From Candidatus Avidesulfovibrio excrementigallinarum (GTDB taxonomy: Bacteria > Desulfobacterota > Desulfovibrionia > Desulfovibrionales > Desulfovibrionaceae), in contig DVMI01000071.1 in assembly GCA_018715085.1 (NCBI GenBank), forward strand, positions 64,971-109,796: a stretch of 44,826 bases of DNA, in the 5' to 3' direction. This document shows, piece after piece, positions 1 to 10,020 of the stretch (its first letter is position 1; the number at the start of each line of letters is the position of its first letter). The notes under the pieces are model-generated. The model had not been told where the DNA came from. It did no database searches and saw only the letters and a list, made by a program, of their open reading frames with translations. The position numbers and the translations under genes are program-made.

Positions 1-1655
1 CCCAGCTGGCCTGGGAAACGCCGTTGTCGGCGCTCAAGGCGCGCATTGCCTCGGGCGAACCCGTGTTTGAGAATGCCATCCGCCGCTGGTTCCTGGACAA
101 TCCCCCGGCGACCGTGCTGCTGTTGCCGGATGCCGATCTGGCCACCCGCCGCGAAGAGGCCGAGCGCGCGCATCTTGCGGCCATTCAGGCAACACTGACC
201 CAGGACGAAAAAGTCCGGCTGGCCGCGGAGGTCGACGCCTTCCGCAAGGCCCAGCAGACGCCGGACAGCCCCGAGGCCCTGGCCACCATTCCCGGCCTGA
301 CCCTTGTCGACCTGCCGGCCAAAAACCGGCTGATTCCTACGGATATGGCGTCGGCCGACGGGGTGACAACGCTGGTCCACGACCTTGACACCACCGGGAT
401 TGTCTATCCGGCGCTGCTGCTGTCTCTTGAAGCCGTACCCGCCGATCTGATGCCTCTGGTGCCGCTGTATGGCCGGGCACTGACCGAGCTGGGCACACAG
501 AGGCATGACTTTGTTACGCTGGGCACGCTGGTGGCCTCGCGGACGGGCGGGCTGGGCGCAGGGCCGTCGTTCCTGTCCCGCTGCGCCGACCGCGCGCCGG
601 TTGCGCATCTGGTGGTCAGCGGCAAGGCCACGGCTGAAAAAACGCCCGCGCTGTTTGAGCTGATGCAGGAAATTCTGCTGGAGCCGGCGTTTGACAACCG
701 CGAGCGTTTTGCCCAGATGGCCCTTGAAGAACGCGCCCGTCTGGAACAGGGGCTCATTCCCTCCGGGCACCGCGTGGTATCCGGACGGCTGCGGGCGCGG
801 CACAGCGTGGCCGGCTGGCTTGGGGAACTGACTTCCGGCGTGGAATATCTGGAGGCCATCCGGAAACTGACGGATCGCATCGCCGCCGACTGGGATGGCG
901 TGCGCGCCGATCTGGAGCGCCTCCACGCGCTGATTGTCCGGCGCAATAAGGCGCTGTTTAACCTGACCGCCGATCGGCAGGGGCTTGAGGTGGCGCTTTC
1001 CGCCGCCTCGGGACTGGCCCGCGCCCTGCCCGACAACACCCTGCCGCCCGCAGTCTGGACGCCCGGTCTTGCGCCGGACAAGGAAGCGCTGATTGTGCCT
1101 TCGCAGGTCAACTATGTGGGGGCCGGATGCAACCTGTACGACGCAGGCTACCGCTGGCACGGGTCGGCGGCGGTGGCGGCACGGCACCTGCGCATGGCTT
1201 GGCTGTGGGATCAGGTTCGTGTGCAGGGTGGCGCGTATGGCGCGTTCTGCACGGTCGACCGCATTACAGGCGCTGTGGCGCAGGTATCCTACCGCGATCC
1301 CAACGTTGAAAAGACCCTGGCGACGTACGCCGGATCGGCCGGCTACCTGCAACGGCTGTCACTGTCACAGAGGGATCTTGAGCTGGCCATTGTAGGCGCC
1401 ATTGGCGACATCGATGCCTATCAGCTGCCGGACGCCAGGGGCTGGACCGCACTTTCCCGCTATCTTGCCGGTGACGACGACGAATCGCGCCAGCGCCGTC
1501 GTGAAGAAGTGCTTGGAACGACAATCAAGGACTTCCATGCCTTTGGCGAAGCCCTGGCCGCGGCCATGGCCTCTTCGACCGTCTGCGCGCTGGGCGGCAA
1601 CAGCGTGTCAGAAGCTGCAGACGCTCACGGCTGGACGTCGCGCACACTGCTGTAA
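1..1655 (+). CDS. M16C-family zinc metalloprotease, C-terminal half (partial)
   Basis: The reading frame is already open at base 3 and the gene runs in from the left edge, so the TTG at 24 is not a real start. The visible 550 or so residues match the C-terminal half of presequence-protease/insulinase-like peptidases (PreP, Cym1, M16C). First comes an M16C-associated region with a charged helix and the stretch around IPGLTLVDLP, then the inactive second M16 repeat (LYGRALTELGTQ, TGGLGAG, and the VRVQGGAYGAF segment that closes the chamber). The HxxEH zinc site lies in the missing N-terminal half. The family degrades short unstructured peptides inside a closed chamber. The gene faces aroE tail to tail, with a shared hairpin at 1675-1725. 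The family is clear; the substrate is unknown. Confidence 0.85.
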   Translation, partial: QLAWETPLSALKARIASGEPVFENAIRRWFLDNPPATVLLLPDADLATRREEAERAHLAAIQATLTQDEKVRLAAEVDAFRKAQQTPDSPEALATIPGLTLVDLPAKNRLIPTDMASADGVTTLVHDLDTTGIVYPALLLSLEAVPADLMPLVPLYGRALTELGTQRHDFVTLGTLVASRTGGLGAGPSFLSRCADRAPVAHLVVSGKATAEKTPALFELMQEILLEPAFDNRERFAQMALEERARLEQGLIPSGHRVVSGRLRARHSVAGWLGELTSGVEYLEAIRKLTDRIAADWDGVRADLERLHALIVRRNKALFNLTADRQGLEVALSAASGLARALPDNTLPPAVWTPGLAPDKEALIVPSQVNYVGAGCNLYDAGYRWHGSAAVAARHLRMAWLWDQVRVQGGAYGAFCTVDRITGAVAQVSYRDPNVEKTLATYAGSAGYLQRLSLSQRDLELAIVGAIGDIDAYQLPDARGWTALSRYLAGDDDESRQRRREEVLGTTIKDFHAFGEALAAAMASSTVCALGGNSVSEAADAHGWTSRTLL

Positions 1656-1674
1656 CCTTTTCAGACAATGCCGC

Positions 1675-1725
1675 GGAGGAAGGAGCGCCCCTTTTGCAAG
1701 GGGGGGCGCTGCCCTTCCCTCCCGG
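1675..1725. terminator. Hairpin between convergent M16C and aroE genes
   Basis: The inner stem AGCGCCCC pairs with GGGGCGCT around a short T-rich loop. It is extended by GGAGG plus AAGG against CCTT plus CCTCC with small bulges. It sits exactly between two convergent genes and can fold from either strand, so it probably ends both transcripts. There is no long U-tract. It belongs to a set of purine-rich hairpins seen at several gene ends in the window. Confidence 0.6.
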
Positions 1726-1745
1726 CGTCAGAACAGCCGGCGCGT

Positions 1746-2606
1746 TCAGGCGTTTTCCAGCCTGGGGCGCAGCGCCTCCCACACCACGCGCGCCATGGCG
1801 GCGCGATCCAGATCGCAGTTCAGGAAATGCTCCAGCGCGAGAATGCCCTGATGGATCAGCATGCCCGTCCCGCCAACAGCCGTAAGCCCCAGCGCTTCAG
1901 CTGCGGCCAGCAGCGTTGTGCGCTGCGGACGGTAGACCACATCACACACCACGCCTGAGGCGGGCAGCGCCGCAAGAAACGCGGTGCTGGCAAAATCCTG
2001 CTGCATTCCCTGCATGCCCAGCGATGTGCCGTTGACAAGCATGTCGTGCCCGGCCAGATCGTCCGGCAGCCGCTGCCAGTCCAGCTGGCAGGCTTTGACA
2101 CCGCAGAAGGCGGCAGCCAGCTCTGCACTCTGCTCCGGACGGCGGCTGAACAGCGTCACTCCGGCCACACCGGCGGCCAGCAGCACCGCCACGATGGAGC
2201 GCACTGCGCCGCCCGCGCCCAGCAGGGCCACCCGCCGGCCCGCCGGATCGACGCCCTGTTCTTGGAGCGCAGCGACAAAGCCTGTACCGTCGGTATTGTG
2301 CCCGCAGAGGCGGCCGTTGCGGATTGCCACGGTATTGACCGCACCGATGGCCCTGGCCTGAGAGTCCAGTTCGTCCACCAGATCAAGCAGCATCAGTTTG
2401 TGGGGCATGGTGGCGTTAAAGCCGGCCAGGGTCCTGCAGGCCGGCGATCCCGTCCAGGCCGGCAGCGCGTCTGCCGCCACGCGCACGGCCTCATAGGATC
2501 CATCGAGGCCAAGCGCTTTAAGCATGGCTGTGTGCATGAGCGGCGACAGGCTATGCGCAATGGGATCGCCAATCACGGCCAGACGTAGTGGTGTTGCAGA
2601 GATCAC
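1746..2606 (-). CDS. aroE: Shikimate dehydrogenase (NADP)
   Basis: Reduces 3-dehydroshikimate to shikimate with NADPH in the cytoplasm. The protein has 286 residues, normal for AroE. Visible signatures are GDPIAHSLSP at the N-terminus (substrate-binding SxS), NATMPHK (catalytic Lys), the NTDGTGF block, and a Rossmann GAGGAVRSI motif. The frame is open for another 84 codons upstream, but I choose the GTG at 2606: a GGAGG ribosome site lies five bases before it, and the family-like sequence begins right there. That GTG overlaps the aroK stop as GTGA, so translation is probably coupled. It is the last gene of the aromatic cluster. Confidence 0.93.
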   Translation of the reverse strand: MISATPLRLAVIGDPIAHSLSPLMHTAMLKALGLDGSYEAVRVAADALPAWTGSPACRTLAGFNATMPHKLMLLDLVDELDSQARAIGAVNTVAIRNGRLCGHNTDGTGFVAALQEQGVDPAGRRVALLGAGGAVRSIVAVLLAAGVAGVTLFSRRPEQSAELAAAFCGVKACQLDWQRLPDDLAGHDMLVNGTSLGMQGMQQDFASTAFLAALPASGVVCDVVYRPQRTTLLAAAEALGLTAVGGTGMLIHQGILALEHFLNCDLDRAAMARVVWEALRPRLENA

Positions 2607-3184
2607 CGTTTCCTCCCCGGCTTTTTGTTCCAGTTGCTGCGTCCTGTACCGGACTGGTCCCCGGCCAGGCGATCCATCCTGCGTTGCAGCTTGAGCAGGG
2701 CCAGAAGCACCCGTTTCAGGCGCCGTCCGTTGTTGAGCACGCGGCAGTCGCAGCTGGCCCGGTAGACGGCCTTGCGTTGCCGGTAGAGCGCAAACAGCGC
2801 CTGGCCGCCTGCACGCAGCAGCGGCCGGTCGCTCAGTTCGGCGGTTTTCAGGATGCATTCCGGCGACCGGTCAAGAAACACAATCAGTCCGTCCGCGCGC
2901 AGCGCCCGCACATTGTCTTCCCGCAGCACCACACCGCCGCCCGTGGCGATGACAACGCCTTTGCGCGCCGCCGCCTCGCGCACGCAGCGCGCTTCAAGAT
3001 CCCTGAAGAAGGCCTCGCCGTCTTCGGCAAAAATGCGTTCGATGCTTTTGCCGGCTGCGGCGACGATCAGATCGTCCGTATCGATGAACGTCCGGCGCAG
3101 GCGCCTGGCCAGGCGTCTGCCCACGCTGCTCTTGCCGCTGCCAGGCATGCCCACCAGCACGATATTGGCACACACCCGCATCAT
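2603..3184 (-). CDS. aroK: Shikimate kinase
   Basis: Phosphorylates shikimate at the 3-hydroxyl using ATP. Residues 12-20 form the P-loop (GMPGSGKSS). They are followed by the DTD shikimate/Mg site near residue 35, the FFRDLEARC Arg/Glu block, the GGG loop in ATGGGVV, and DRPLL near the adenine site. The start is the first of two tandem ATGs, which overlaps the aroC stop as ATGA. The open frame extends further upstream but the extra residues do not resemble the family. At 193 residues it is slightly long because of a basic C-terminal tail rich in Arg and Lys. AroK and AroL cannot be told apart by sequence reading; the single-gene context favours the aroK name. Confidence 0.92.
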   Translation of the reverse strand: MMRVCANIVLVGMPGSGKSSVGRRLARRLRRTFIDTDDLIVAAAGKSIERIFAEDGEAFFRDLEARCVREAAARKGVVIATGGGVVLREDNVRALRADGLIVFLDRSPECILKTAELSDRPLLRAGGQALFALYRQRKAVYRASCDCRVLNNGRRLKRVLLALLKLQRRMDRLAGDQSGTGRSNWNKKPGRKR

Positions 3185-4251
3185 GACCGCGCTCCGCACG
3201 CCAGCAGGCTTTGCATGGTCAGCGCCGTGGCCGCCTCCACCACAGGCACGGCCCGGGGCAGGATACAGGGATCGTGGCGTCCGCCTACGCGCAGCCGGGC
3301 AGACTCGCCCGTGCGCATGTCGACGGTTTCCTGCTCCAGCGCAATGGAGGGCGTCGGCTTGATGGCGACAGCGCACACCAGCGGCATGCCGTTGGTAATG
3401 CCGCCGTTGATGCCGCCGTTGTTGTTGGTCCGTGTGCGGATGCGCCCTTCGCTGTCCCGGTAGAAAGGATCGTTGGCCTCGCTGCCGCGCATGGCGGCCA
3501 GGCGGAAGCCTGCGCCAAACTCAAGCCCTTTGACAGCCGGGATAGCCAGCAGATACCTTGCCCAGAGGCTTTCCACACTGTCGTCAAAGTCCGGACCGCC
3601 AAGTCCGGCAGGCATGCCGCAGACCAGGCATTCGATGACGCCGCCTACCGAGTCGCCGCAGGCACGCGCCTGAACAATCCGTTCGCGCATGGCTTCTCCG
3701 GCAGCGTCGTCCAGAACGGCCAGATCTTTTTGGGGCAGTGCGCGCAAGGCAGCCAGATCGGGATTGGCATAGTCGACGGGGCTGTCGGTCAGTCCGGCCA
3801 GTTCGCGAATATGGGCTGCAATTTCAATCCCATGGCCGCGCAACGCCAGCCTGGCCACCGCGCCGGCAAAGACCAGCGGCGCGGTGAGGCGTCCTGAAAA
3901 GTGGCCGCCGCCGCGCGGGTCGTTGCAGCCTGCGTAGCGCAGATGGCCGGTCCAGTCGGCATGGCCGGGCCGGGCGAGCCAGCGGGTGGCCTCGTAATCG
4001 CGCGAACGCATGTCGGTATTGCGGATGATTGCGCACAGGGGCGTGCCGCAGGTCCGGCCCTCAAAAACGCCGCTGACAATCTCCACGGCGTCCGCTTCCC
4101 GGCGGGCTGTCGCCAGCAGCGACCCCCCCGGCGCGCGGCGCGCCATCTGCGCCGCCACAAACGCCATGTCCAGCTCAATGCCGGCGGGGACGTCTTCCAG
4201 CACTACGCCGATGGCCGGGCCGTGCGATTCTCCAAACAGATGATAGTTCAT
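3181..4251 (-). CDS. aroC: Chorismate synthase
   Basis: Converts 5-enolpyruvylshikimate-3-phosphate to chorismate using reduced FMN. The 356 residues contain the family blocks FGESHGPAIG, RRAPGG, RSRDYE, GGHFSGRLTA and the Asn-rich NNNGGINGG segment. The ATG at 4251 has a GGAG ribosome site seven bases upstream. The N-terminus is short: most AroC proteins carry six to ten more residues before GESHG (a NSFG-like strand), and none are encoded here before an upstream stop. A gap of about 200 bases separates it from tyrA, so it may have its own weak promoter. Downstream, aroK overlaps by ATGA. Confidence 0.95.
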   Translation of the reverse strand: MNYHLFGESHGPAIGVVLEDVPAGIELDMAFVAAQMARRAPGGSLLATARREADAVEIVSGVFEGRTCGTPLCAIIRNTDMRSRDYEATRWLARPGHADWTGHLRYAGCNDPRGGGHFSGRLTAPLVFAGAVARLALRGHGIEIAAHIRELAGLTDSPVDYANPDLAALRALPQKDLAVLDDAAGEAMRERIVQARACGDSVGGVIECLVCGMPAGLGGPDFDDSVESLWARYLLAIPAVKGLEFGAGFRLAAMRGSEANDPFYRDSEGRIRTRTNNNGGINGGITNGMPLVCAVAIKPTPSIALEQETVDMRTGESARLRVGGRHDPCILPRAVPVVEAATALTMQSLLACGARS

Positions 4252-4450
4252 ACACTCTCCAAGACATCCGGTTCCCGGCCAGGGCTGCCGGCCGGCTCAG
4301 TGGCGCGAACGGCCAATGCGGTGCTGTCCGCGCGCGGTCTCATCTTCAGGGATGAGGGGTTGTTGTAGGGGACATAAGGGGCGGCAACCTGCTGTTGCAG
4401 GGGCTCCTTTTCCGTCAGGGTGCGGACGGTGCGGCGCCGTCCCGGCCCGT
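4252..4450 (-). other. tyrA-aroC intercistronic gap with alternative hairpins
   Basis: This is the only gap over 50 bases between pheA and aroE. It holds two overlapping, mutually exclusive short stems: CCTGC with GCAGG at 4388-4401, and GCAAC with GTTGC at 4384-4398. An open frame crosses the region (4248-4502) but resembles nothing and overlaps the tyrA end, so I do not call it a gene. I see no convincing promoter. Confidence 0.4.
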
Positions 4451-5275
4451 CTACCGTACAAACGGGGCCGACGCTTCCCGTTCGTGGTTTCGCCACCACC
4501 ACTGCGCTCTGTGCGTCAGCAGATCGATGTCGCCTGCCGCCGCAACGCCCAGCAGCGCGGTATACTGGCGCACGACCTCCTGACTGTACGGATTGGCCTC
4601 GAACAGACTCCTGAACAGCTGGGCGTCCTCCATGATCATCTTGCGTCCTGCGGCCAGCCTGCGCTGGAATGACGGCGTCAGAAACGGCAGCAGGCTGTCG
4701 TCTTCAGCCAGCATGGCCAGATAGACCATGGTCGAAATAAAGTTCATGCTCTGGATGCGCGCTGCGGCCTTGTCGTGCTGTTCTGCCGTCACCCTCAGCA
4801 CCTGGCAGCCGCAGCCGGCAAACAAGGCCTCGACACGGCGCAGGGCTGTTTCGGTTGACGATTTGCCGGGCGTCACGGCCACGCGCAGAGGCTGGCCGGG
4901 CGCGGTAACAGGGCCGAACAGCGGGTGCGTCCCCACCACAGGGCCGCTCCATGCGCGTTCCATCTGACGCATGGGCAGTTCCTTGACTGAAGTCACATCG
5001 GCCAGCACCGTTCCTGGCCGCATGTGCGGCGTCACACGCCGCAACACGTCGCCAAGCGCCGCGTAGGGCACGCACAGCAGCACAATCTGCACCTGGCCGC
5101 AGGCCTCGTGCAGCCGCGGTTCTTCAAGAGGCGTGTCCACTTCTACAGTCATACGGCCGCTTTCCCTGAAACGCCGGGAAAGCATGCTCCCCATCTGACC
5201 GCGCGCGCCCACAATCAACACGGCGTCGCGCTCGGCCGTTGTCAGTTCGAGACCGGGCATCGCAACATACTCCAT
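4451..5275 (-). CDS. tyrA: Prephenate dehydrogenase
   Basis: Oxidatively decarboxylates prephenate to 4-hydroxyphenylpyruvate, the tyrosine branch. At 274 residues it is a stand-alone enzyme with no fused chorismate mutase. It starts with a Rossmann motif (VLIVGARGQMGSML, residues about 19-32), continues with the strand/loop blocks VLADVTSVKE and VGTHPLFGP, and ends in the all-helical domain. The start overlaps the end of aroA by 34 bases. The ATG at 5275 gives the full frame; an in-frame ATG at 5260 is an alternative. Cofactor preference (NAD or NADP) cannot be read safely. Confidence 0.92.
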   Translation of the reverse strand: MEYVAMPGLELTTAERDAVLIVGARGQMGSMLSRRFRESGRMTVEVDTPLEEPRLHEACGQVQIVLLCVPYAALGDVLRRVTPHMRPGTVLADVTSVKELPMRQMERAWSGPVVGTHPLFGPVTAPGQPLRVAVTPGKSSTETALRRVEALFAGCGCQVLRVTAEQHDKAAARIQSMNFISTMVYLAMLAEDDSLLPFLTPSFQRRLAAGRKMIMEDAQLFRSLFEANPYSQEVVRQYTALLGVAAAGDIDLLTHRAQWWWRNHEREASAPFVR

Positions 5276-6582
5276 ACTTCCCAGAATCGAGGAAACGACT
5301 TGTTCACTACTGACGGATTGTCCACCACAACCGGCTGTTCACCGAGTCCGAACAGCGCCATGGACATGGCAATACGGTGATCGTTGTGGGTTTGGAACAC
5401 GGTTCCCTGCGGCACTGTTGGCTGCCGGCCAAGGCCGTGTACCGCCAGGCCATCCTCAAATTCATCCACCGTCACGCCTGCGCGCCGCAGTTCGCCTGCC
5501 GAGGCGGCCAGACGGTCGCTTTCCTTGAACCGCAGGTGCGCCACATTGCGGATCCGGGTCACACCGCCGGCTACCGCCGCCAGTGCGGCCACTGTAGGCA
5601 CCAGATCCGGGCAGTCTCCCATATCGACATCCACGCCATGCAGCGCCGCCGGAGAAACCCGCACGCCTTCAGGCGTCCATTCCACAGGCGCGCCCATGGC
5701 CCTCAGGATTTCTGCAATGGCCCGATCGCCCTGCAACGAGTTCTGGCGCAGTCCGGTCACACAAAGGGGATGAAGGCCCACGGCCCCGGCCGCCAGCAGG
5801 TAGGACGCGCCGGACCAGTCGCCTTCCACCGTGTGTTCGCCGCACGCATAGCGTCCCGGCTGTACGGTCAGGCGGATGTCGGCGGGGCGCACGCTGGCGA
5901 GTTTCCGCCAGTCGGCGGATTGCCAGATTCCCCCGGATCTGCGTTCCTCCACAAGCACGTGTAAGCCAAAATCTTCCAGCGTCTGAAGCGTCAGGCCCAC
6001 ATACGGCCAGGATACGGCCTTCTCCCCTGTGAGAGACAGGCGCAACGGGGTGCGGCAGAACGGCGCGGCCAGCAGCATGCCCGAAAGATACTGGCTTGAC
6101 TCGTCCATACGCAGCCGGACGTCGCCACCGGGGAGCCCGGCTGCACACAGGCGCAGTGGCGGGTAGCCTTCGCGCACTTCGCAGCGGCAGTCCACGCCCT
6201 GGCTCCGCAGCGCCTCGATCAGCGCGCCAAGGGGCCTTTCGTGCATGCGCGGCACTCCATGGATGCGGAAATATCCCCGCCCGGCCGACAGCACCGCCGA
6301 AAGCAGGCGGCAGGTTGTGCCGGACTCGTGCACGTCGCACGACAGGGGCGCGTTTGCCGACAGCGAGCCCCGGGGGCCTTCCGTCATGCCTTCGACACGC
6401 CAGTCGCCTGCTCCAAGCGGCTCGATCCGCGCGCCGGCGTCCGTAAGGATGGCGCGTGTGCGCTCAAGATCCACACAGTCCAGCACATGCCTGACCACCG
6501 AATGTCCCGGAGCCAGCGCAGCCGCAATCAGCATGCGGTGTGAAATAGATTTGGACGCCGGGGCCCGTACTTGCAGCGTCAT
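5242..6582 (-). CDS. aroA: 3-phosphoshikimate 1-carboxyvinyltransferase (EPSP synthase)
   Basis: Joins shikimate-3-phosphate and phosphoenolpyruvate. The 446-residue protein opens with the PEP/S3P-binding block APASKSISHR. It has SGTTCRLL in place of the usual NAGT-type loop, LRMDESSQYLSGML, and the C-terminal FKESDRLA and THNDHRIAMS signatures. The ATG at 6582 overlaps the pheA stop as ATGA; upstream in-frame residues do not match the family. The alternative loop around SGTT would place it near the class II group, but that class call is inference. Confidence 0.95.
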   Translation of the reverse strand: MTLQVRAPASKSISHRMLIAAALAPGHSVVRHVLDCVDLERTRAILTDAGARIEPLGAGDWRVEGMTEGPRGSLSANAPLSCDVHESGTTCRLLSAVLSAGRGYFRIHGVPRMHERPLGALIEALRSQGVDCRCEVREGYPPLRLCAAGLPGGDVRLRMDESSQYLSGMLLAAPFCRTPLRLSLTGEKAVSWPYVGLTLQTLEDFGLHVLVEERRSGGIWQSADWRKLASVRPADIRLTVQPGRYACGEHTVEGDWSGASYLLAAGAVGLHPLCVTGLRQNSLQGDRAIAEILRAMGAPVEWTPEGVRVSPAALHGVDVDMGDCPDLVPTVAALAAVAGGVTRIRNVAHLRFKESDRLAASAGELRRAGVTVDEFEDGLAVHGLGRQPTVPQGTVFQTHNDHRIAMSMALFGLGEQPVVVDNPSVVNKSFPRFWEVWSMLRCPVSN

Positions 6583-7742
6583 GATTTTGCCCCCGGCATT
6601 TCTTCGCCCAGTTTGGACAGCCGCGGTCCTTCGGGATAACTCCCCAGGATTCTGAAGGACGTGCACAGCTCGCCAAGCCGTTCGATAAGCGGCGCAAACG
6701 CCGGTTCGGCCATGTCACACTCCACGTCGGCAAAAAAGACGTATTTCCAGCATTCGCCGGCCAGAGGGCGCGATTCGAGCTTGCGCATGTTGACTCCGCG
6801 CCCGGCCAGCGCCTCAAGCACCGAGGCCAGCGCCCCCGGCTTGTCGCGCAGCGTGAACAGCAGCGAACTGCGGTGCGGTCCTTCGCTTCCTTTGCTGAGG
6901 GGGGCGTGATCCGGCGCGCCAATCAGCACAAACCGCGTCCAGTTGGAGGGGTTGTCTTCAATGCCGGTGGCCAGAGCTTCCAGCTGTATGAGTTCGCCAA
7001 GCCGGTAATGGCCTACGGCGGCGGCATGGGGATCTTCGGCAGCCAGCCGGGCGGCTGCGGCGGTGGATTCCACCGCGACAAGGCCGGCCTGAGGCAGGTG
7101 TGTTCTGAGCCAGGCGCCGCACTGTCCCAGAGGCTGCGGATGCGAATAGACCTTCTGAATTTCAAGCAGCGAGCGTGCCCGGCTCAGCAGGCTGTGGCTG
7201 ATCCGCGCAAAAAATTCGCCAAGGATGATCACGTTTGTCCGCGCAAACAGGTCAAAGCTCTGGCCTACGGTGCCCTGAAGAGAATTTTCAAGCGGCACGA
7301 TGCCGCAGTCGCATTGGCCGGAGGCCACGCGCTGGAAAATTTCAGAAAAATTGCCGCAGGGCTGAAAGCGTGTGGCGCTGCCCAGGTATTCGACGCCTGC
7401 AAAATACGAAAAGGTGCCTTCGGGCCCGAGATAGGCGGCGCTGTAAGGGCGTTGCAGCGCGCGGGACACAGACAGAATCTCGCGCCAGAGCATCATGACG
7501 TGCTCGTTGTCCAGCGGACCTTCGTTGCGTTCTGCCAGCCGCGCCAGCAGCTCGCTTTCCCGGCGCGGATCGAAAATGGGCATGGGCTTGCCCTGATTTG
7601 TGGTGGCCGCCTTCAGACGGCCGACTTCCAGGCTCAGCAGCGCGCGCTTGTTGAACAGGCGGAGCAGTTCGCCATCCACCTCGTCGATGGCCTGGCGCAA
7701 AACCGGCAGTGGACGCGGAGCAGCAGACATGTTGGCATTCAT
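6579..7742 (-). CDS. pheA: Bifunctional chorismate mutase / prephenate dehydratase (P-protein)
   Basis: Makes prephenate from chorismate, then phenylpyruvate, the phenylalanine branch. The 387 residues contain three domains in order: an AroQ-type chorismate mutase (about residues 10-100, IDEVDGELLRLFNKRA), a prephenate dehydratase (about 105-285, starting at LGPEGTFSY, with the ENSLQGTVGQ block and NWTRF), and a C-terminal ACT domain with the ESRP motif that normally binds phenylalanine for feedback inhibition. The ATG at 7742 has GGAGG just upstream and lies one base after the stop of the previous gene. Enzyme-level control by Phe would add to transcript-level control by the leader at the cluster front. 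Confidence 0.95.
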   Translation of the reverse strand: MNANMSAAPRPLPVLRQAIDEVDGELLRLFNKRALLSLEVGRLKAATTNQGKPMPIFDPRRESELLARLAERNEGPLDNEHVMMLWREILSVSRALQRPYSAAYLGPEGTFSYFAGVEYLGSATRFQPCGNFSEIFQRVASGQCDCGIVPLENSLQGTVGQSFDLFARTNVIILGEFFARISHSLLSRARSLLEIQKVYSHPQPLGQCGAWLRTHLPQAGLVAVESTAAAARLAAEDPHAAAVGHYRLGELIQLEALATGIEDNPSNWTRFVLIGAPDHAPLSKGSEGPHRSSLLFTLRDKPGALASVLEALAGRGVNMRKLESRPLAGECWKYVFFADVECDMAEPAFAPLIERLGELCTSFRILGSYPEGPRLSKLGEEMPGAKS

Positions 7743-7743
7743 C

Positions 7744-8715
7744 TTAGGCCTCCCGGATGTCTTCGCGGATACGCATGCCAAAGTGCCGCCCTGCTTCATC
7801 CAGGGCGCAAAGCACGGTGTCGCCAGGTTGCAGTTCCACCACGCTCAAGGGCGTGCCGTCGGGAGCGGTAAGGCGGATTGTTTCGGCATCCTGCAGGAAA
7901 ATGACGCCCTTGCGCTTGTCTGCCGTTTCGGCCTCAATCAGCAGCATGGGCCGGACTTCGGTCTTGATCCGGCCTGCGGTAACCTGCCATTCGCGTCCCT
8001 GGGCGTCCACCGCCAGCAGGGGTGCGCCGGGGCGCAGTTCTTCCAGATAGGAGGTTTTGTCGCCGGGCAGGCGGATATAGGCGTGCACCGCACCGGCATT
8101 GATGCGGAACGGACGGGCGGCCACATATTCGTTGGGCTCTGTTTCGGCATGAACCAGGAAAAGGAAGCCGCTTGTGTTGCCCACAAGCATGCCCTGGCCG
8201 CGCGCAAACAGGGACAGCGTGTCCACGCAGACGCGGTGCCCGAGACCCGCGCGCTCGACACGGGTTACCGTGGCGGGCACAAGATCGGCCTGGCCGCAGC
8301 CTACCTTGCACTGACGAACGATATCCTTCAGTTCCGCCAGACCGTCGGGAAGCACGACCACGCCGTCCACGCCTTTTTCCAGAATGCCTGCGGCACGGCG
8401 CGCCTCCTCAAGCGAGGCGACCTCGGCCAGCACTCCGGAGCACTGTGCCAGCAGGTTTTCCATGGGGATGACTTCCCAGCCGCGCTGGACGACGCACCGT
8501 CCGCCGCTTTGCAGCAGCGTGCAGATGGCTTCTTCATCGGCCTTGGCGTTGATGCCGCGCGAAGGAAGTTCCTCTTCAGAGACCACAGGCACGCGCGAAA
8601 GCGCGCTTACGGCTTCCACTTCACCGGAAGGGACAATGACGCCGTCGACGCCCGATTCAAGGGCAAGAGTGACGTTTTCTTTGCTGTAGGGGACGCTTTT
8701 GAACAAAATTTGCAT
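7744..8715 (-). CDS. 3-dehydroquinate synthase II (AroB', archaeal type)
   Basis: Belongs to the MJ1249-like family, which oxidatively deaminates and cyclises ADTH (2-amino-3,7-dideoxy-D-threo-hept-6-ulosonate) to 3-dehydroquinate. It replaces classical AroB. The protein has 323 residues from the ATG at 8715, which has AAGGAG six bases upstream. Recognisable blocks are ATVTRVERAGLGHRVC, SLFARGQGMLVGNTS, VAARPFRINAGAVHAY, and the C-terminal GVIFLQDAETIRL and PGDTVL stretch. It follows the ADTH synthase gene after 166 bases, as the two-step route requires. Confidence is high because both enzymes occur together. Confidence 0.93.
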   Translation of the reverse strand: MQILFKSVPYSKENVTLALESGVDGVIVPSGEVEAVSALSRVPVVSEEELPSRGINAKADEEAICTLLQSGGRCVVQRGWEVIPMENLLAQCSGVLAEVASLEEARRAAGILEKGVDGVVVLPDGLAELKDIVRQCKVGCGQADLVPATVTRVERAGLGHRVCVDTLSLFARGQGMLVGNTSGFLFLVHAETEPNEYVAARPFRINAGAVHAYIRLPGDKTSYLEELRPGAPLLAVDAQGREWQVTAGRIKTEVRPMLLIEAETADKRKGVIFLQDAETIRLTAPDGTPLSVVELQPGDTVLCALDEAGRHFGMRIREDIREA

Positions 8716-8881
8716 TTCTGACTCCTTCCGGAAAACTCGCACGTCCGGGAGCGAGGTCTTTTGAGCCTGTCCGGCTGCAAAAGGCGCGCTGCCCGCGCGC
8801 GGCGCAAAAAACGGTTTTTATTTTTTTGACGGTCAGCCCTGTTTTTGTGCGGCAGGACCGGACGTCTGTTGTGGGCTTGAG
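8716..8881 (-). other. Intercistronic gap with terminator-like hairpin
   Basis: The 166 bases between ADTH synthase and 3-dehydroquinate synthase II contain, read on the - strand, an A/T-run segment (8811-8834 region) followed by a stem GCGCGC, loop GGGCA, GCGCGC and then CTTTT (8780-8800). It resembles a weak intrinsic terminator and could reduce readthrough into the seven downstream genes. No internal promoter is obvious. Confidence 0.4.
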
Positions 8882-9703
8882 TTAGGCCGCCATGGAAACG
8901 GGGTGGCTTGCCAGCAGGTTCAGGGCTTCGTCAACGCCAAGGTTGTTGTGCACCATTGCCCGCAGGGCCGCCACCAGATCCCGGCGCTGGGGGTGCTGGA
9001 ACACGTTGCGGCCGATGGAAAGACCGGCGGCTCCGGCTGACAGGGCGTCGTGCACCATCTGGAGGATATCGGCTGTCGAATCCATCCGTTCTCCGCCGGC
9101 AATCAGCACCGGCACGCCGCACGAGCGCACAACGTGTGCAAACGTATCCGCGCGGCCCGTGTACGACACCTTGACCAAATCCGCACCCAGTTCAGCCCCC
9201 ACACGCGCGCAATGCGCCACCATTTCGGGGGCAAAACTGTCCTTGATGTGCGGGCCGCGTGCGTAGAGCATCATCAAAAGCGGCATGCCCCAGCGATCGC
9301 AGTCGTCCGCAATGCGTCCGGCGTCTTCAAGCATCTGGCGTTCGTTGTCGTCGCCAATATTGACGTGGATGGAAACGGCGTCGGCATCCAGGCGCAGGGC
9401 CTCCTCCACAGTGCCCACAATCCCCTTGGTGTTGCCGCCGGGCGCAAGCGAGGTGGAAGCCGAAAGATGCACAATGAGGGCTGTTCTGGAAACGCCGCCA
9501 CAGCTTTCCACCGAGCGGGCCAGCCCCTTGTGCATGATGACTGCGTCGGCGCCGCCGAGGGAAAGTTCGGCCACAGTGCCGTCGATGTCGCGGATACCCT
9601 GAATTGGACCGACTGTCATGCCGTGATCGAGAGGGACGATGACAGTGCGATGATCCTGAGGATTGAGGATGCGGTCCAGACGTCTGCGTTTGCCAAGTTC
9701 CAT
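8882..9703 (-). CDS. 2-amino-3,7-dideoxy-D-threo-hept-6-ulosonate (ADTH) synthase
   Basis: A class I aldolase of the FbaB/DeoC/LacD superfamily, related to archaeal AroA' (MJ0400). It condenses a deoxy-oxo-hexose phosphate with aspartate semialdehyde to make ADTH, bypassing DAHP synthase. The 273 residues show the TIM-barrel blocks VIVPLDHGMTVGPI, LSASTSLAPGG, VSIHVNIGDD, MMLYARGP, ADLVKVSYTG (probable Schiff-base Lys in this strand) and VLIAGGER plus GLSIGRNVFQH for phosphate binding. The start is the ATG at 9703 with AAGGA upstream. Generic annotation would call it fructose-bisphosphate aldolase. Its position before 3-dehydroquinate synthase II and pheA supports the aromatic role. It is the first structural gene behind the attenuator. 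Confidence 0.88.
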   Translation of the reverse strand: MELGKRRRLDRILNPQDHRTVIVPLDHGMTVGPIQGIRDIDGTVAELSLGGADAVIMHKGLARSVESCGGVSRTALIVHLSASTSLAPGGNTKGIVGTVEEALRLDADAVSIHVNIGDDNERQMLEDAGRIADDCDRWGMPLLMMLYARGPHIKDSFAPEMVAHCARVGAELGADLVKVSYTGRADTFAHVVRSCGVPVLIAGGERMDSTADILQMVHDALSAGAAGLSIGRNVFQHPQRRDLVAALRAMVHNNLGVDEALNLLASHPVSMAA

Positions 9704-9764
9704 GACGAGTTCCTTTTGCTGTGTTTTGCTCGGGTCAGGCACTTCGCGGGCTGCGGTCTGGGAT

Positions 9765-9796
9765 AAAAAAAGGCCGCCGGCGAAATGCCTGCGGCC
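9765..9796 (-). terminator. Attenuator terminator of the aromatic operon
   Basis: Read on the - strand, GGCCGC pairs with GCGGCC, the stem is extended inside by GGC with GCC, the loop is ATTTC, and seven T follow directly. This is a strong intrinsic terminator lying between the leader peptide stop (9821) and the first structural gene (9703). Its 5' arm is shared with the alternative antiterminator pairing, which marks it as conditional. Confidence 0.88.
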
Positions 9797-9844
9797 CGAA
9801 GTGTTGATGACGTATGCGTTTCAACAGAGCTTCCGACCACAGGC
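9787..9844 (-). promoter_or_regulatory. Antiterminator pairing of the aromatic leader
   Basis: GCCTGTGG at 9844-9837, overlapping the last codons of the leader peptide, can pair with CCGCAGGC at 9794-9787 (seven Watson-Crick pairs and one G-U). The second element takes up the 5' half of the terminator stem, so the two folds exclude each other. A ribosome stalled on the Phe/Tyr codons at 9868-9851 would leave this pairing free to form; a ribosome reaching the stop codon would cover it. The geometry is that of trp/phe-type attenuation. Confidence 0.8.
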
Positions 9845-9934
9845 CTCCGAATAAAAGTAAAAAAAGTATCCAGCGCCAAACTGGTAAGCCTGGCTGCTGA
9901 ACACAAAAGAGTGGCGGAAGCTGAAACGTTGCAT
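9821..9934 (-). CDS. Phe/Tyr-rich leader peptide of the aromatic operon
   Basis: A 37-codon reading frame from ATG 9934 to TGA 9821, with AAGGA ten bases upstream. Eight of its residues are Phe and four are Tyr; the densest run is YFFYFY at codons 23-28 (9868-9851). It lies after a promoter with a consensus -35 box (10000) and directly before a mutually exclusive antiterminator/terminator pair. The first structural genes behind it make Phe and Tyr. The peptide itself probably has no function; translating it is the sensor. It is too short for usual gene callers, so it would normally be missed. Family knowledge: pheA and pheST leaders in enterics work this way; a Desulfovibrio aromatic leader of this kind is my inference from sequence. 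Confidence 0.88.
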   Translation of the reverse strand: MQRFSFRHSFVFSSQAYQFGAGYFFYFYSEACGRKLC

Positions 9935-9970
9935 GGCAACAATATCCTTAATGGTCAAAAGTTCGGGAGA

Positions 9971-10000
9971 AACCTACGCCGCGAACCTGAAGGTTGTCAA
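9971..10000 (-). promoter_or_regulatory. Promoter of the aromatic operon
   Basis: A perfect -35 box TTGACA at 10000-9995 and a weak -10 box (GTAGGT at 9977-9972, 17-base spacer). The start of transcription would fall near 9965, about 30 bases before the leader peptide ATG. Upstream is an A-rich patch (CAAAAAATAT). A palindrome, AACCT with AGGTT, lies in the spacer. Confidence 0.65.
9984..9995. promoter_or_regulatory. Palindrome inside the aromatic promoter spacer
   Basis: AACCT, two bases, AGGTT: a perfect 5-bp inverted repeat starting at the last base of the -35 box. This is where a repressor would block RNA polymerase. No regulator is identifiable from the window. Confidence 0.4.
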
Positions 10001-10020
10001 GATGTTCGTGATATTTTTTG

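Follow-up and report, generated by a model that had tools for sequence, protein, structure and literature searches.

How Desulfovibrio-type bacteria tune the archaeal-type ADTH route of aromatic synthesis to demand is the question raised by this locus. The window (the whole 44,826-nucleotide stretch of DNA that was analysed) carries an aromatic gene cluster headed by ADTH synthase, and the region upstream of this gene offers a testable answer. Judging from its sequence and from modelling of its RNA, we hold with high confidence that this region is a classical ribosome-mediated transcription attenuator for Phe and Tyr. The features involved are collected in Table 1.

The leader frame reads from an ATG at 9934 to a TGA at 9821 on the minus strand and encodes the peptide MQRFSFRHSFVFSSQAYQFGAGYFFYFYSEACGRKLC. 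It sits between a TTGACA hexamer and the start of the ADTH-synthase gene at 9703. The 37 codons, the 12 aromatic residues and the YFFYFY block at codons 23-28 given in the initial annotation are confirmed from the sequence. On both strands of the 44.8-kb window this is the sole start-to-stop frame of 12-70 codons with at least five aromatic codons (F/Y/W) among six consecutive ones. Among 2000 dinucleotide shuffles of 9704-10003, a 6/6 aromatic run arose in one, and an ATG frame of at most 45 codons with 12 aromatics in none. Use of Phe codons in the leader (TTT/TTC 5/3, versus 30/24 in the operon genes) shows no clear rare-codon bias. The -35 was described as consensus, and this is true of the perfect TTGACA; after an 18-nt spacer the -10 element is weak (TAGGTT), and because it is poor only the -35 counts as consensus.

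The RNA of this region is strongly structured. The fold of 9760-9960 has an energy of -78.3 kcal/mol, compared with -51.2 ± 4.1 kcal/mol for shuffles (z = -6.65). The stem-loop with its U7 tract is present where it had been proposed, and its hairpin energy is -19.4 kcal/mol. The antiterminator pairing was also correctly recognized, but its extent was not: it comprises 10 bp (9844-9835 with 9796-9787) rather than 8 bp at 9844-9837, with complementarity over the full length when G-U pairs are included. Region 2 also pairs with the A of the terminator 5' arm that stays mispaired in the terminator itself. The aromatic block ends 6 nt before region 2, equal to the family median, and the leader stop codon lies 11 nt past region 2. 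Upstream, region 1 can form a protector stem with 9840-9829. Equilibrium folding of the window leader without a ribosome yields this stem; for the nascent transcript, prior to synthesis of region 4, it is not predicted. Across the family it is only partly conserved and weakly supported, and we do not claim it family-wide because the median z is -1.8 and only 43 of 95 leaders fall below -2. A leader-internal hairpin followed by a U-rich stretch of Phe codons might, according to the fold, be a pause site, or an early terminator if the leader is untranslated. Of 94 leaders, 16 have a hairpin energy below -10, and values below -20 are confined to the window genus. As it is strong only in the window and its sister species, it is treated as a local feature, and the hairpin with its U-stretch was rejected as a general second terminator.

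Table 1. Features of the leader region and of the gene cluster in the window (window positions)
Feature	Position	Strand	Basis and remarks
-35 element TTGACA	9995..10000	-	sequence; perfect TTGACA
Leader peptide frame	9821..9934	-	37 codons, 8 Phe + 4 Tyr, no Trp; homologous leaders in family
Region 1 GCUUCCGCCAC	9911..9921	-	can pair with 9840-9829 (protector stem)
Leader-internal hairpin, then U-rich Phe-codon stretch	9866..9904	-	fold, -22.6 kcal/mol
Stall codons YFFYFY (codons 23-28)	9851..9868	-	sequence
Region 2, antiterminator 5' arm GCCUGUGGUC	9835..9844	-	inside leader frame, codons 31-34
Terminator GGCCGC-A-GGC/ATTTC/GCC-G-GCGGCC-U7	9796-9765	-	sequence; GC hairpin + U7
Region 3 GGCCGCAGGC	9787..9796	-	shared arm, pairs with region 2 (antiterminator) or region 4 (terminator)
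Region 4 GCCGGCGGCC (9781-9772) and terminator U-run	9765..9781	-	sequence
ADTH synthase (2-amino-3,7-dideoxy-D-threo-hept-6-ulosonate synthase, aroA'), first structural gene	8882..9703	-	TIGR01949, 352.7 bits (cutoff 299.45)
3-Dehydroquinate synthase II (aroB')	7744..8742	-	NF002628, 487 bits, slightly under 508 cutoff
Chorismate mutase/prephenate dehydratase (pheA)	6579..7799	-	NF008865, above cutoff
EPSP synthase (aroA)	5242..6666	-	TIGR01356, above cutoff
Prephenate dehydrogenase (tyrA)	4451..5275	-	NF008400, 1.9e-32, under cutoff
Chorismate synthase (aroC)	3181..4251	-	TIGR00033, above cutoff
Shikimate kinase (aroK), probable start near 3184	2603..3184	-	NF010553, 2.7e-40, under cutoff
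Shikimate dehydrogenase (aroE), end of co-directional cluster	1746..2858	-	TIGR00507, just above cutoff

The two structures share region 3, and the position of the ribosome decides between them in the model. For stall folding, the leading edge of the ribosome was set some 15 nt downstream of the P site and the free RNA was folded at equilibrium. With a ribosome at aromatic codons 4-27 the antiterminator is predicted, P(2:3) being 0.85-1.00. When the ribosome stands at codon 28, further along or at the stop, or when there is none, the terminator is predicted with P(3:4) of about 0.9. For codon 28 itself, a stall is predicted to favour the terminator at equilibrium and not to antiterminate. By stall folding and the family alignment together, the regulatory codons and the stop are placed such that stalling would free region 2 and completion would mask it. 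We infer the following course of events. Transcription would begin upstream of the leader frame, with a ribosome trailing RNA polymerase. Under a shortage of charged tRNA-Phe or tRNA-Tyr, the ribosome would stall on one of the aromatic codons (4-27) and leave region 2 free to pair with region 3; no terminator would form and the aromatic genes would be transcribed. According to the model, antitermination should follow a stall on a Phe codon as well as one on a Tyr codon. When both tRNAs are plentiful, the ribosome would reach the stop and cover region 2, and regions 3 and 4 would then form the terminator. A leader that is not translated would likewise end in the terminator fold.

Conservation of the element was computed from ADTH-synthase homologues in the named genomes and in 119 Desulfovibrionaceae genomes (44 genera), with a match in 108. 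Of 134 upstream regions, a set that includes outgroups, secondary paralogues and second tandem copies, 98 contain a frame that begins with ATG, is about 24-41 codons long and has a dense block of F/Y/W codons. Dense aromatic leaders thus precede most ADTH-synthase operons in some 40 genera of the family. A terminator follows the leader in 95 of the 98 leader-bearing regions, usually 18-38 nt past the stop and nearly always of the same design. All 91 family leaders have a TTGAC no more than 110 nt upstream of their ATG. The Phe/Tyr attenuation proposed initially is therefore supported, since frame, antiterminator, terminator and TTGAC -35 are all kept across the family; the suggested check was made, and an aromatic frame and a terminator are both conserved in front of orthologous operons. 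In four leaders (L078, L093, L104 and L124) only about 8-12 nt separate the end of the best -10 match from the ATG, so in these genera the peptide may be translated from an mRNA that is leaderless or almost so.

The pairing itself covaries. In an alignment of 58 sequences, 93.8% of the cells of the region 2:3 antiterminator are paired, with 28 double changes compared with a shuffle mean of 6.7, and sliding the two regions by 1-3 columns leaves only 37-45% paired. The terminator stem has 91.7% of its cells paired. Antiterminator pair 25:101 is kept in 56 of 58 sequences (as UA, CG, UG, AU or GC), although terminator pair 101:118 is mispaired in 40 of 58, which argues that the antiterminator, and not a perfect terminator, is what selection maintains in the shared arm. 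The geometry is equally regular. In all 58 sequences region 2 keeps frame 0 of the leader and is followed by the stop codon after 8-20 nt, and the last aromatic codon ends at a median of 6 nt before region 2. Because region 2 is fixed in frame and position, the peptides have a common ACGR/ACGL/ARGR-like end.

These features also bear on other readings of the leader. The hairpin is strong and ribosome-free RNA adopts the terminator, as would be expected if the element were a constitutive premature terminator or the source of a small RNA, free of translational control and with an incidental aromatic frame. We consider this highly unlikely: aromatic density is far above chance and is repeated in dozens of genera, the aromatic block keeps a fixed distance and frame to region 2, the codons track operon content, and the antiterminator pairing is kept even where the terminator is mispaired. 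Aromatic operons of other phyla are regulated by T-box, riboswitch or leader-binding protein, and the leader might similarly sense something other than the ribosome, as a T-box-like tRNA-binding RNA, a riboswitch or the target of a TRAP- or TyrR-like protein. Against this, no Rfam family (including Phe_leader, Trp_leader, T-box and riboswitches) reaches its gathering score in the window and seven related loci, where permissive settings return only sub-threshold, chance-like matches, and the codon content of the frame would have no reason to track the controlled genes. Such sensing is exceedingly improbable.

A third reading keeps the frame and gives the peptide itself a function in trans, besides or instead of attenuation, as for peTrpL of Sinorhizobium; leader peptides with trans roles are reported (PMC7298713). 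However, the length and sequence of the peptide are poorly conserved except in the aromatic block and in the ACGR/ACGL/ARGR segment, which the RNA constrains, and the leader codons of the window and its sister species differ by seven amino-acid-changing and four silent changes, so that a trans-acting peptide is very doubtful.

Preferring ribosome-mediated attenuation, we next consider how far its control reaches. The initial annotation counted nine controlled genes; the cluster consists of eight co-directional genes (ADTH synthase, DHQ synthase II, pheA, aroA, tyrA, aroC, aroK and aroE). Between tyrA and aroC there is a gap of 199 nt (4252-4450). The attenuator could be real and yet limited to the genes from ADTH synthase to tyrA, with aroC-aroK-aroE having their own start in this gap. 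The gap itself speaks for this arrangement, as does the trp-linked order in relatives, which places other genes after tyrA. On the other side, the genes are co-directional, and in the gap there is neither a recognisable promoter nor a terminator on the gene strand nor an unusual fold. A separate start is possible but, on balance, unlikely, and attenuator control likely extends past the gap to aroC-aroK-aroE. A search of 1500-9900 found no promoter-like site, and transcription starting downstream of 9765, named initially as a refuting case, is without support.

The design has well-known relatives. In the enteric pheA attenuator (pheL) a Phe-rich leader peptide sets the choice between antiterminator and terminator and a phenylalanine gene is controlled, as would be the case in the window. 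The window element is nevertheless unlike pheL (Rfam Phe_leader): it has no Rfam match and mixed Phe/Tyr codons, occurs in another phylum and serves a common-pathway, Phe and Tyr operon that starts with the ADTH route. One leader peptide reports several amino acids in ilvGMEDA (Ile/Val/Leu) and thrABC (Thr/Ile), and the window element would be multivalent in the same way for Phe and Tyr (and Trp in relatives). The trp attenuators of Actinobacteria (PMC1262725) have repeated regulatory codons and GC-rich antiterminators and terminators with shared complementary segments, the same design as in the window, but they sense Trp only and belong to another phylum and other downstream genes. The uORFC-13-1 motif (PMC8632094; 24 representatives) is a proposed Phe-sensing leader before aroF in Acholeplasma; like the window leader it precedes the first aromatic-synthesis enzyme, whereas phylum, sequence and downstream enzyme differ.

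The closest precedent is that of Song et al. 2005 (PMC1173090, Table 7), who list, with Merino's site as the source, a putative attenuator before D. vulgaris aroA'>aroB'>aroQ-pheA>aroF>tyrA>[trp operon]. The claim that no example had been described for this gene set in a sulfate reducer fails, since this predicted attenuator stands before the homologue in D. vulgaris. The operon type is that of the window and the organism is a related sulfate reducer, and the two elements are very probably orthologues. The word 'leader' does not occur in the text of PMC1173090, which says nothing about a leader peptide or its codons, and the entry covers one Desulfovibrio species in a putative-attenuator database with no conservation test. 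The D. vulgaris cluster ends in trp genes, while the window operon ends in aroC-aroK-aroE. In RNA-seq of D. hydrothermalis (PMC4162548) the homologous ten-gene ADTH...trpF block shifts together by about 2.5-3.9 log2 under pressure, and this joint change fits one control located upstream. Neither the relevant Desulfovibrio gene nor any attenuation is mentioned by Price et al. 2018 (PMC5764234). In a search of largely open-access literature, no paper was found that describes the leader, the codons in it or how widely it is spread.

The element is nearly class-wide and absent from Rfam. A covariance model of the leader end and the terminator matches 286 of 297 genomes of the class Desulfovibrionia, including five other families of the order. 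When the 30 best loci of this search were fetched, an aromatic leader was directly upstream of the ADTH gene in 29; the thirtieth has the leader on a short contig. In a phylum-level sample the model threshold is reached in 10 of 148 genomes, five of which are outside the class. These five are not counted as members because no ADTH gene is near the match, and spread beyond the class was rejected. Further model matches in the window's own genome, at 23-29 bits, were set aside as chance; one is the complementary strand of the terminator on contig C83 (see below) and the others are without an aromatic leader.

Three loci from other classes of the phylum (L176, L177 and L178) have short aromatic frames, MKHNQLSQANFYYFYYNEGRNLPAY, MDNNQQRRKYYFYYRRLGLPSL and MVRRNFVKSDFFYFYFFSGSGLPMG plus a second one, that lie close to weak model matches but not close to ADTH, and these are possibly other aromatic-sensing leaders. 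The next gene downstream in L176 and L177 is acyl-CoA-synthetase-like or beta-lactamase-fold-like, named by eye.

The codons of the leader vary with the operon. With trp linkage assigned from trpC positions, Trp occurs in the aromatic core of 35/35 leaders on operons running into trp genes versus 17/40 others (Fisher p = 1.2e-8 per leader, counts that are not independent by descent). Taking one leader per genus, the figures are 19/19 versus 8/19 (p = 1.3e-4). On the enzyme tree, well-supported branches force at least nine changes of the Trp label, with a few Mailhella labels, set by gene order, being unsure. The leader is Trp-free in five of six cases from genomes where no trpC was found; the sixth case, with Trp, is the sister species' second copy in a genome that is 83% complete. 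The window follows the same pattern, since both a trp gene in its operon and Trp in its leader are absent. The agreement is a tendency and not a rule, because 17/40 non-linked leaders still carry Trp; the common aromatic pathway feeds Trp too.

Within single genomes the two copies differ accordingly in their cores. The trp-linked leader and that of the other copy read FFTYWYYW versus FFFFFFF in G028 and G060, FWYWYWYY versus FFSFSFFFFF in G071, FYFGYWY versus FFFFFSFYF in G090, FWYYYWF versus YFSFFFFF in G016, and FYFWYWF versus Tyr-rich FGPYYYYG in G025. We think it likely that control of the ADTH route in Desulfovibrionales works through interchangeable leader codons, with paralogues tuned by the attached genes (Phe, FFFFFFF; Tyr-rich, YYYY; Phe+Tyr; Phe+Tyr+Trp), which would be isozyme-specific sensing by attenuation. 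In E. coli, isozyme-specific sensing for the DAHP synthases is achieved via TyrR and TrpR. Leader codons tend to match the controlled genes, and the element recurs in nearly all Desulfovibrio-type bacteria. For annotation, the codons predict which amino acids an operon, isozyme or transporter gene senses, and Trp codons, which have been gained and lost repeatedly in nature along with trp linkage, offer a ready comparative experiment on attenuator retuning.

Several individual loci add to this variety. An ADTH paralogue of G025 (L196; contig C1, near 2023376, minus strand) has the Tyr-rich leader MNARQTALRTVSFGPYYYYGLRARGLAGGAAD and, from this sequence, is possibly a Tyr-sensing copy. In Mailhella (L003, L004, L134 and L135) tandem ADTH-synthase genes with one attenuator each lie beside a divergent trpC; the first leader contains Trp and the second is Phe/Tyr-only. 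In genus g5 (L179 and L180) the attenuator recurs, its leader being Phe-only (e.g. MHINQNRFRFFFFFSFRFFRSACGLGVCA), in front of a membrane transporter that by eye resembles sodium:solute symporters, and the leader suggests that this transporter carries phenylalanine.

The window's own genome holds other leaders on contig C83. A second ADTH synthase (61% identical) is divergent from trpE-trpGD-trpC (L132:4923-5090, 5151 onward) and has its own leader MKALQQNSFFFTNAPAKFFGWQFFYFTESCGRKLC, with an FFGWQFFYF core, and its own terminator. On the trp side, two tandem Trp-type leaders stand before trpE (L132:4005-4560, minus strand). The distal one ends in ...FACNWWWRIDSFGRGCGLGA and the proximal one is MLAQTVFNPLFAVLFAGNWWRTVSLGRGCGPDA; each is followed by a near-identical AGCCGTC...GACGGCT-Un terminator, so that the pair is apparently a duplicated Trp attenuator in series.
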